24,555 bases of DNA from a virus. The notes below the pieces were generated by a model that made no database searches, had not been told where the DNA came from, and saw only the letters and a list, made by a program, of their open reading frames with translations. The position numbers and the translations under genes are program-made. The DNA lies in IMG/VR virus record IMGVR_UViG_3300044729_000109, positions 1 through 24,555 of that record; one strand, 5' to 3'. Positions 4,327-6,036 of the stretch are shown in pieces (position 1 is the first letter of the stretch; each line of letters begins with the position of its first letter).

Positions 4327-4521
4327 TTAAAAAATCTCATCATCTTGCCAGTGCTGAACTGGTGGTTGCGTAAATGTTGCGACTGCAATATCCCGCTTGG
4401 TTGCAGGCTTTTTGTCCGACCATTGGTGCTCTGAACACATTGGCTTTTGCCCATTTATGTGGACAGACCAGCGTTTCTGGCAACCAGGCGCACTGCACAT
4501 TAATTTTTCTAATTCGTCCAT
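4327..4521 (-). CDS. Small putative zinc-binding protein
   Basis: A 64-residue protein with a compact possible metal site: C9 and C14 (MCSAPGCQKRW), then C29-x2-H32 (PMCSEHQW). Four ligands in about 25 residues suggest one zinc knuckle; the remaining C-terminal third is polar and likely disordered. Its start overlaps the end of the upstream P-like gene by 13 bases, with AGGTCAAG before the ATG. Family not recognised. Role in replication is suggested only by position between the replication genes and rusA. Confidence 0.7.
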   Translation of the reverse strand: MDELEKLMCSAPGCQKRWSVHINGQKPMCSEHQWSDKKPATKRDIAVATFTQPPVQHWQDDEIF

Positions 4522-4880
4522 CTTGACCTTAACTCAGCAAGTTTGCGTTTGGCCTCGGCAATAACTTCAGGGTCGACAGGCTTTGGGTTGTATTCAATCT
4601 GGGCTTGGTTTCGTGGAATGTTTGGGCCTGCATTGCAGAATTCTCGGAACTTAATTGCGCTTGGTGGGTAGTCAGCATGGCAACGGTCAATGGCGTAGTC
4701 CATGCTTGGTCGGTAAGTCAAAAAGTTGCCAAGCTGCCTTTGCCATTCTTGCCGCACCAGCTCGAGGTCAACGCCCTCCCAGTGCCGCAAAAATGCTGCC
4801 CCGTAAATTGCACTCATGCGGCCAAAAATGTAGTCCAGCCCTTCATCCTGAGTGCATTCGTTATTTGAGTAATTGGACAT
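4509..4880 (-). CDS. Replication protein P-like (helicase loader type) protein
   Basis: A 123-residue protein whose centre resembles the helicase-loader (lambda P) family: FGRMSAIYGAAFLRHWEG, then VRQEWQRQLGNFL, then the PPSAIKFREFC segment that parallels the P-family ending in Pro-x-x-x-x-F-x-x-(F/W)-C. It is shorter than lambda P and carries a charged C-terminal tail (VIAEAKRKLAELRSRW). It lies immediately downstream of the DUF1376 protein, overlapping it by 20 bases, as O-P pairs do. The ATG at 4880 is chosen because GGAGGG lies seven bases upstream. The assignment is by pattern and context, not by a catalytic residue. Confidence 0.72.
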   Translation of the reverse strand: MSNYSNNECTQDEGLDYIFGRMSAIYGAAFLRHWEGVDLELVRQEWQRQLGNFLTYRPSMDYAIDRCHADYPPSAIKFREFCNAGPNIPRNQAQIEYNPKPVDPEVIAEAKRKLAELRSRWTN

Positions 4881-5592
4881 TGCTTTGCCCTCCAAGTAAC
4901 CCACGAGTTAAGCCTTGCAGGACAGTGGCATTGCGCTGCCCTGTTTTTGTCAGGCCATTTTGTGTTTGTTTTTCAGTAATCCATTCAGCTTTTAAGCCTT
5001 GGCTACCTCTGGTACACCATTCAACCAAAAACCTTTCCAAATCCCAACCAAGTTTTGCGGCTTCCGAACGTGCGCCCTTAACAACAGTTTCTGTGACCGA
5101 TGCCTTTTTGGTTTTCCGCAGTTGCAACCAATCAGCCCAAACTTGTTGGCTTACATCGGGTGGGCAAGCAACGATAGTTGCTCTTTCTTTTATTGGTTTA
5201 TGGTTATTGGTTATTGGTTTATGGTTAGGTGGAGGTTCGTTTACGCTTTGTTCACGGTTCGTGCTTTTTTCCCTACGCTTCGTTTCTCTTTCAATGGCGA
5301 TACGTTTATTCGTGTCTGCTTTAGCATGGTATTCAAGCAACTCTTGCAGGATTCTGTCTTGCACATAGCAGCCATCTTTATCCAGCGTGAAAAACCTAGA
5401 TAAAACAAACTTTACAGCCTCGACCTCTGCTTCTGTCGATGCCCAAGTCCATTCAAGTGCCTGCTCTAATGTGGGGAATACTTCACGGTCATAGCACGAA
5501 TCAATAAGAAGCGTGTACGAACCGTGCTGAAGCATAGTTAGCCGACCAGCTTTCTTTGCATAGTCGCCAAGGTTTCGTTTGTAATAGTGCAT
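4861..5592 (-). CDS. DUF1376 (YdaU-like) phage replication protein
   Basis: This 243-residue protein begins HYYKRNLGDYAKKAGRLTML, the usual start of DUF1376, and the domain runs to about residue 105 (LEQALEWTWASTEAEVEAVKFVLSRFF, QDRILQELLEYHAKAD). A polar, Asn/Lys-rich linker follows (NHKPITNNHKPIKER). The C-terminal half has VWADWLQLRKTKKASVTETV and LERFLVEWCTRGSQGLKAEWI, which recurs in phage replication-initiation proteins. It occupies the position of lambda O ahead of a P-like gene. Notably its ATG has no clear ribosome site and directly follows a U8 tract and the hairpin AGCCC/GGGCT, so expression is probably controlled by the structured leader upstream. Confidence 0.88.
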   Translation of the reverse strand: MHYYKRNLGDYAKKAGRLTMLQHGSYTLLIDSCYDREVFPTLEQALEWTWASTEAEVEAVKFVLSRFFTLDKDGCYVQDRILQELLEYHAKADTNKRIAIERETKRREKSTNREQSVNEPPPNHKPITNNHKPIKERATIVACPPDVSQQVWADWLQLRKTKKASVTETVVKGARSEAAKLGWDLERFLVEWCTRGSQGLKAEWITEKQTQNGLTKTGQRNATVLQGLTRGLLGGQSNVQLLK

Positions 5593-5703
5593 AAAAGCCC
5601 AAAAAAAAGGGCTAACCCTGAGGTCTCACCCTTGCGGGTGTTGGCGGACTGGCACAGTACCAGCAGACATCAGGGGTAGCCCCACTGTGAAACGCCGCCA
5701 AGC
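5593..5703 (-). ncRNA. Double-pseudoknotted structured leader RNA, probable attenuator
   Basis: Hand-found complementary segments on the leftward strand are as follows. 5695-5701 pairs 5641-5647 (7 bp). 5684-5689 pairs 5653-5658 (6 bp). 5670-5682 pairs 5609-5621 (12 bp plus one mismatch). 5665-5668 pairs 5623-5626. 5660-5663 pairs 5649-5652. 5636-5640 pairs 5627-5631 and closes a GCAA tetraloop. The first helix crosses the third, and the second joins a hairpin loop to an outside strand, giving two pseudoknots. The GNRA loop exists only on the minus strand, supporting that sense. The 13-position stem runs straight into U8 (5608-5601) just ahead of the replication gene. I do not recognise it as a known riboswitch or ribozyme class. 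Confidence 0.7.
5601..5621 (-). terminator. Intrinsic terminator half with U8 tract before the replication gene
   Basis: On the leftward strand the 3' arm UCAGGGUUAGCCC (5621-5609) is followed with no gap by eight U residues (5608-5601). Its partner arm is 5682-5670. The same AGCCC can instead pair with GGGCT at 5600-5596 around the U8 loop, giving a mutually exclusive small hairpin abutting the start codon at 5592. Such a pair of alternatives is what transcriptional attenuators use. Termination itself is inferred. Confidence 0.6.
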
Positions 5704-5722
5704 GTCTTTTTTTTATTTTAAC

Positions 5723-5872
5723 TCAATAACAGTTTGTGTTGCAATTATTTCCATAACAGCAGGTGGTGCAGGTTACATACCTTCCATTGGCATAGTAGGT
5801 ATGAGTTGAACAAGCCGCCCAGACCGTTGTGGTTGATGCTGCAATCCAAATTGCAAACAGTGCTTTTTTCAT
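5723..5872 (-). CDS. Secreted Cys-rich small peptide
   Basis: A 49-residue ORF found by direct translation, starting MKKALFAIWIAASTTTVWAA. Residues 1-20 form a textbook Sec signal (two Lys, hydrophobic core, small residues before the predicted cut after WAA or AAC). The remaining about 29 residues carry six Cys (21, 35, 38, 39, 44, 48) plus Tyr, Asn and Thr, so the mature peptide is likely disulfide-bonded in the periplasm or outside. It overlaps the upstream regulator gene by ATGA (5869-5872), and GGAGG lies just upstream of its start. Being the second gene of the early leftward operon, a role in host exclusion or envelope modification is conceivable but only a guess. Confidence 0.72.
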   Translation of the reverse strand: MKKALFAIWIAASTTTVWAACSTHTYYANGRYVTCTTCCYGNNCNTNCY

Positions 5873-6036
5873 GTTTCCTCCGTTAAAAACCAATCAGGCT
5901 TCAAGTCCTTGAGCTGGCGCAAACGCAACTCAGGGATTTGTGCCTTCCACTGGCAGACCGCAGGCTTGCTGATGCCCAAAAGCCTTGCAAGCTCACTCTG
6001 TGACCCTGCCAATTTGATAAGCTGTTCTTTTGTCAT
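5869..6036 (-). CDS. Small Cro/YdaS-like helix-turn-helix regulator
   Basis: A 55-residue ORF read directly from the sequence. It begins MTKEQLIKLAGSQSELARLL and continues with GISKPAVCQWK. This is a classical helix-turn-helix: helix 2 SQSELARLL (12-20), turn GIS, recognition helix KPAVCQWK (24-31). The remainder IPELRLRQLKDLKPDWF resembles the C-terminal helix of YdaS/Cro-like phage regulators. It is the first leftward gene next to the divergent control region, the usual place for Cro or an antirepressor. No ribosome-binding site is visible ahead of its ATG, and a promoter -10 box ends about seven bases upstream, suggesting a leaderless message. Confidence 0.85.
   Translation of the reverse strand: MTKEQLIKLAGSQSELARLLGISKPAVCQWKAQIPELRLRQLKDLKPDWFLTEET

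Follow-up and report, generated by a model that had tools for sequence, protein, structure and literature searches.

What kind of RNA stands immediately upstream of the replication gene in this phage genome, and what might it do there? The stretch of DNA analyzed (the window; 24,555 nt, positions 1 to 24,555 of IMG/VR record IMGVR_UViG_3300044729_000109) encodes on its minus strand a DUF1376 protein, primosomal or replication initiation O-like (4861..5592; PF07120, 1.7e-17; phrog_6451 primosomal protein, 4e-33; phrog_678 replication initiation O-like, 2e-15). The original prediction, drawn from the letters of the window, placed directly in front of this gene a double-pseudoknotted leader that ends in a run of U. 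A structured, cis-acting phage RNA immediately 5′ of a replication gene, with the anatomy of a terminator, is supported by the comparison with relatives presented here. As to function, the reading that best suits the sequences, and one that we hold with somewhat more belief than doubt, is that of a pseudoknot-gated attenuator with a translational back-up, carried by an uncatalogued cis-acting phage 5′ leader of about 105 nt.

Architecture of the leader RNA

On the minus strand, positions 5707-5601 of the window contain six helices, two of which are pseudoknots, within an RNA of about 105 nt. The first is a small hairpin, S1 (span 5692..5705), in which ACGC 5705-5702 pairs with GCGU 5695-5692 around a loop of six, UUGGCG; in an alignment of 101 sequences, 99.3% of its cells are paired and two-sided changes occur at 3/4 pairs. 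The entire S1 loop is in turn the 5′ strand of the pseudoknot P1 (5641..5701), formed by UUGGCG 5701-5696 with CGCCAA 5646-5641, the latter lying 3′ of P3 (100% paired, with two-sided changes at 3/6 pairs, in the same 101 sequences). Helix P2 (5609..5682) joins 5682-5665 to 5626-5609 over 18 positions, with two mismatches in the window, and abuts the U tract; across the 101 sequences 95.3% of its cells are paired and 17/18 pairs show two-sided changes. Two further helices lie inside P2: P3 (5649..5663), which pairs CUGG 5663-5660 with CCAG 5652-5649 (99.8% paired, two-sided changes at 4/4 pairs in the 101 sequences), and the hairpin P4 (5627..5640), CACCC-GCAA-GGGUG (94.8% paired, 4/5 pairs, again in the 101).

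The second pseudoknot, PK2 (5653..5689), pairs the P3 loop, ACUGUG 5658-5653, with CACAGU 5689-5684 in the stretch preceding P2, and both P1 and PK2 cross P2. In the smaller alignment A1 (33 sequences), 91% of PK2 cells are paired and 5/6 pairs show two-sided changes; in the 101-sequence alignment A2, where PK2 is partly misregistered, its halves are 63% and 89% paired. Gapless 3′ of P2 follows the U8 tract (5601..5608), and at least five consecutive U occupy this site in 94/101 relatives. The pairings first proposed (5701-5695 with 5647-5641, 5689-5684 with 5658-5653, and 5682-5670 with 5621-5609) are all there on the minus strand, as are the GCAA hairpin at 5640-5627 and the U8 at 5608-5601; that description overlooked two helices, S1 and P3, and gave P2 less than its full length.

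The order of the helices (5′ P1, 5′ P2, P3, 3′ P1, P4, 3′ P2) matches the nested double pseudoknot of HDV-like ribozymes, and a self-cleaving RNA of this topology can be envisioned. The details do not bear it out: P4 abuts P2 (alignment columns 142 and 143), leaving no unpaired J4/2 strand for the catalytic C; the P3 loop is taken up by J1/2 in an extra pseudoknot; a U tract follows; and no Rfam ribozyme matches even at E 10. An HDV-like ribozyme is rejected on anatomy and Rfam, and we give self-cleavage next to no credence.

Conservation of pairing and identity of the strand

Folding of the single window sequence without pseudoknots gives z = -3.1; the convincing part of the case for the leader is the comparative evidence. 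In homologues the pairing is conserved and carries compensatory changes. Among the 33 aligned members of A1, paired cells make up 95.1%, compared with 36-42% in slid controls, with two-sided changes at 29/43 pairs; among the 101 highly diverse members of A2, 94.5% form standard pairs, against 37-46% in shifted controls, with two-sided changes at 37/43 pairs. None of 500 shuffles of A2 equals the observed value by any measure, although kinship among sequences inflates permutation tests of this kind. The letters of S1, P2, P3, and P4 vary widely while pairing is retained; those of P1 are constant, in A2 partly through selection, as the scans required the P1 hexamers. At loci collected by protein, the 5′ strand of P1 reads UUGGCG, UUGACG, or UUGGUG. 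Covariation of this extent shows the predicted double-pseudoknot fold S1-P1-PK2-P2-P3-P4.

The same data identify the strand. The fourth pair of P2 is U-G in 18/33 A1 sequences, the commonest form of that pair; clear covariance-model matches fall on the sense strand, with antisense matches only at noise level (11 bits); and it is in that sense that the tract is one of U. The molecule is therefore the minus-strand RNA. A plus-strand or single-stranded DNA structure was also considered and is rejected on the G-U pairs and the sense-strand covariance matches.

Distribution among phages

At least 119 viral contigs match the core pattern, and 97 further ones are confirmed by the covariance model (94 from a second pattern, which fixes the S1/P1 letters only, and 3 from a third). 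The model separates its matches well: clear ones score above 50 bits, apart from one at a truncated contig end with 35, and everything else reaches about 20 bits at most. Matches to the pattern CTTGGTGG...CCACCAAC are mostly due to chance, with 3 clear ones among 100 contigs tested. When loci of DUF1376 relatives were gathered without using the RNA, the same architecture was found upstream in 13/79 inspected, twelve by a simple pattern and one, L067, by confirmation with the model. It also occurs in divergent letters, as in L069 (ATCACTTGACGGTGA...CCGTCAAC) and L080 (TTGCTTGGTGGCAA...CCACCAAC).

Named carriers include Burkholderia phages BcepIL02, CSP3, and DC1, Pseudomonas phage AH02, and Leptolyngbya phage Lbo-JY16, all of which offer culturable material, together with Manatee Spring phage MW202462; Burkholderia phage JC1 gave no match within the stretch searched. 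Among 15 records searched whole, 14 hold one copy and one short contig holds two. In the 4-kb contig L381, copies lie at 114-225 and 2443-2561, both on the minus strand, the second with an altered P1 (TTGGTCG/CGACCAA).

Among cellular genomes, a collection of 84,980 species contains no instance of the exact core pattern. Of the loci brought in by a looser pattern, 100 were put to the covariance model and none passed; whole-genome model searches scored just 10-12 candidates per genome and carry no weight; and when 399 genomes were scanned with a pattern, two matches appeared, both chance-like. BLAST of plasmids with divergent members returned no match. Two weak model matches at about 20 bits, L432:3433-3551 and L274:11397-11507 (both minus strand), resemble a more remote P1-crossing-P2 pseudoknot that includes a U tract; their P1 letters are entirely different (in L432, the 12-bp GGATCGACGGCT/AGCCGTCGATCC), and the P1-crossing-P2 architecture may extend beyond the leader family.

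The original prediction knew of no class with this pairing, and Rfam has no family for the leader: a search of the window with Rfam 15 gave no gathering-level match (best E 0.68 in 5560-5740, on the opposite strand and far under the cut-off), and in relatives nothing matches the leader RNA. No paper describing it was found in a literature search that covered sources other than the 2017 survey of 224 RNA motifs. The leader represents an uncatalogued phage-borne RNA family and is probably an undescribed switch for early-gene control. It is common (more than 200 viral contigs, from a few scans capped in size), topologically unusual, and usually placed where phage replication begins; large structured RNA classes confined to phages seem few in the catalogs.

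Position ahead of replication genes

The window has the gene order cro-like regulator, small Cys-rich ORF, leader RNA, DUF1376/primosomal gene that includes an O-like part, and a gene with a weak P-like loader match, all on the minus strand. The Cro-like HTH regulator lies upstream at 5869..6036 (phrog_409 transcriptional regulator, 2e-13), and the Cys-rich protein, with a signal-like N-terminus (MKKALFAIWIAAS...CCYGNNCNTNCY) and no PHROG match, at 5723-5872; the gene next after DUF1376, at 4509..4880, weakly matches a P-like helicase loader (phrog_109, E 3.5e-4). Look-alikes of the Cys-rich protein precede both leader types, the present RNA and the int-alpA-like ones discussed below.

A consensus scan places a sigma-70-like promoter-like site at 5715..5744 on the minus strand (TTGCAA 5744-5739, 18 nt, then a TAAAAT -10 box at 5720-5715). 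Measured from the final base of the S1 5′ strand, -10-like hexamers in 100 relatives are most frequent 10-13 nt upstream; among the divergent members, some have the box farther away in that direction or show none. Because a -10 box lies upstream in relatives as in the window, we infer that the leader RNA is probably the 5′ end of its transcript.

At the other end, the DUF1376 start codon in the window falls 8 nt past U8, and in 85/90 close relatives the start codon is 8-14 nt past the U tract, and the interval usually contains GGG or GGAG. The start codon was first described as lacking a ribosome site; a weak one, GGG 5600-5598, is present, as GGG or GGAG is in relatives. The gene served by this site varies. 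DUF1376, O-like, DnaD-like, and Lin1244-like replication proteins follow the leader, as do homing nucleases (HNH, GIY-YIG), small ORFs, and a ParB-like protein; where a nuclease or small ORF intervenes, a replication gene usually comes next. Since the start-codon spacing is kept whichever gene follows, the RNA is best understood as a cis-acting 5′ leader. Autoregulation by the downstream protein had been suggested; it is not supported, and for DUF1376 it is rejected, as many unrelated genes follow the leader RNA.

In L043, L045, L088, L108, L125, L146, L293, L214, and L419, HNH or GIY-YIG-type nuclease genes have been inserted precisely at the junction of the leader RNA with the following gene and have taken the leader's ribosome site for themselves. 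In L005 (of the L005-L011 group), a gene whose DUF1376 product is 96% identical to that of the window lacks the RNA and adjoins an upstream ORF instead; the leader is a module that is gained or lost.

A promoter-like box and a terminator-like end that bound a neat 105-nt unit, followed by many unrelated genes, could also be those of a free-standing small RNA that works in trans, perhaps on a factor of the host, with the gene behind it only a neighbor. The constant 8-14 nt to the start codon, even with inserted genes, is hard to explain without cis action, and there is no room for a second promoter; a small RNA of this kind is unlikely.

Proposed attenuation with a translational back-up

Pseudoknot-gated attenuation, which we prefer, would proceed in a few steps. 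Transcription would start just 5′ of S1, and the 5′ domain would fold first. If P2 then closed during a pause of RNA polymerase at the U tract, intrinsic termination would follow, with the timing of closure set by the pseudoknot core, either through its folding speed or through a bound ligand or protein. In read-through transcripts of part of the family, the 3′ strand of P2 could pair with the ribosome site and so provide a second, translational brake. The predicted effect is to limit or time expression of any gene placed behind the leader, in most cases an early operon's replication initiator.

Several features bear on this scheme. The anatomy of an intrinsic terminator is present, with a stable stem, P2 (-26.3 kcal/mol as a duplex), followed by the U tract, and with a loop far larger than usual. 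The leader site goes unmarked in a simple terminator scan, whose rule does not allow for so large a loop. The U tract is absent in L353 and L382 and interrupted in the Burkholderia phages. Pairing of the P2 5′ strand with internal and 5′ regions, as expected of a conserved antiterminator, does not rise above permutation. With no classical antiterminator found, control would lie in the folding or stabilization of the pseudoknot core.

The back-up would depend on an alternative hairpin, P5 (5596..5613 on the minus strand), in which AGCCC 5613-5609 pairs with GGGCU 5600-5596 around U8 (-8.7 kcal/mol) and which overlaps the ribosome site. This alternative was proposed from the window, where it is indeed present; only part of the family has it. 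In that part P5 recurs with different letters (ACAAACC/GGUUUGU in L067, UAAGUCU/AGACUUA in L360, and UAGAACC/GGUUCUA in L353), at a level that 11/500 permutations reach after grouping by P2 end. It is kept in L353 and L382 despite their having no U tract, it is absent from the whole large AGGGC group (mean score 0.7), and it is weaker than P2 by 17-18 kcal/mol. The most fitting view of P5 is that of an additional brake, acting on translation, in some members.

It could also be more than a back-up. Under purely translational control, the U tract would serve as a flexible P5 loop on which ribosomal protein S1 could land, rather than as a working terminator; formation of P2 would leave the ribosome site free (ON), and formation of P5 would hide it (OFF). 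Covariation of P5 in many members, including L353 with its missing U tract, and the tight start-codon spacing suit this account; the AGGGC group without P5, the large deficit in stability relative to P2, and the long U tract that most members retain do not, and we regard it as doubtful.

Returning to attenuation, what might the core respond to? A tentative extension, in which we place appreciable confidence but less than in attenuation itself, and which falls short of an even chance, is that the leader is a putative phage-specific switch class with a new double-pseudoknot fold, sensing either a small molecule or a protein, of the phage or of its host, in infection and timing the early replication operon in phages whose hosts are Burkholderia, Pseudomonas, and cyanobacteria. 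As a sensor, it would let phages begin replication in response to a signal; as nothing more than a pseudoknotted terminator, it would represent a type that escapes a simple terminator scan.

Relation to known systems

Transcription-attenuating riboswitches offer one parallel to such a scheme: they share with the leader a 5′ position, a compact pseudoknot, and a terminator-like helix and U tract preceding a ribosome site. The phage leader differs in having no conserved antiterminator and downstream genes that are not a metabolic set, and its ligand sensing is putative.

Lambda offers a parallel of position. The gene order in the window is like that of cro-O-P, and the terminator-like site lies between cro-like and O/P-like genes, as tR1 lies between cro and O. 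Lambda tR1 is Rho-dependent and located with nutR; the window, in contrast, has a structured RNA with its own promoter-like box, set against the start codon.

Plasmid replication control offers a parallel in sequence. In ColIb-P9 the repZ loop 5′-UUGGCG-3′ pairs with a distant CGCCAA that precedes the replication initiator gene, and this UUGGCG loop with its CGCCAA partner, found in repZ/repA leaders (IncI, IncB, IncL/M; ColIb-P9), recurs at 5701-5696/5646-5641 of the window. The title of a reference cited in PMC10724649 names a UUGGCG loop motif for plasmid ColIb-P9. Countertranscript control in the style of the IncI plasmids would have a plus-strand antisense RNA compete for the UUGGCG loop, and besides the identical loop and target, the plus strand of the window has, by inspection, S1 and then T8, a terminator-like end. 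The relatives listed do not conserve that run, at which the antisense RNA would have to stop, and an antisense promoter would fall within unrelated downstream genes. A conserved antisense RNA is unlikely on inspection of relatives, and countertranscript control of this kind seems very improbable. The phage RNA further differs from the plasmid leaders in having five more helices and a U tract, in a CGCCAA that is not adjacent to the ribosome site, and in the unrelated genes that follow; the likeness is probably convergence.

The int-alpA RNA (RF02996) shares the genomic slot itself, as a structured phage RNA that leads DUF1376 replication genes. The two differ in sequence and fold: RF02996 gives no match at E 10 to 5560-5740 of the window, and in the int-alpA examples inspected the ribosome site is not immediately preceded by a U tract. 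By a crude pattern, int-alpA-like RNAs occupy the DUF1376 slot in about 40/79 loci, with matches at or below the Rfam cut-off (35.8 bits; L054 scores 36.5 and L078 34.9). The int-alpA RNA or diverged relatives stand as DUF1376 leaders at L054:1908-1976, L078:77-151, and L031:1612-1688, and in L015, L063, L021, and L066. The slot that it shares with the phage leader suggests a role for the int-alpA RNA.
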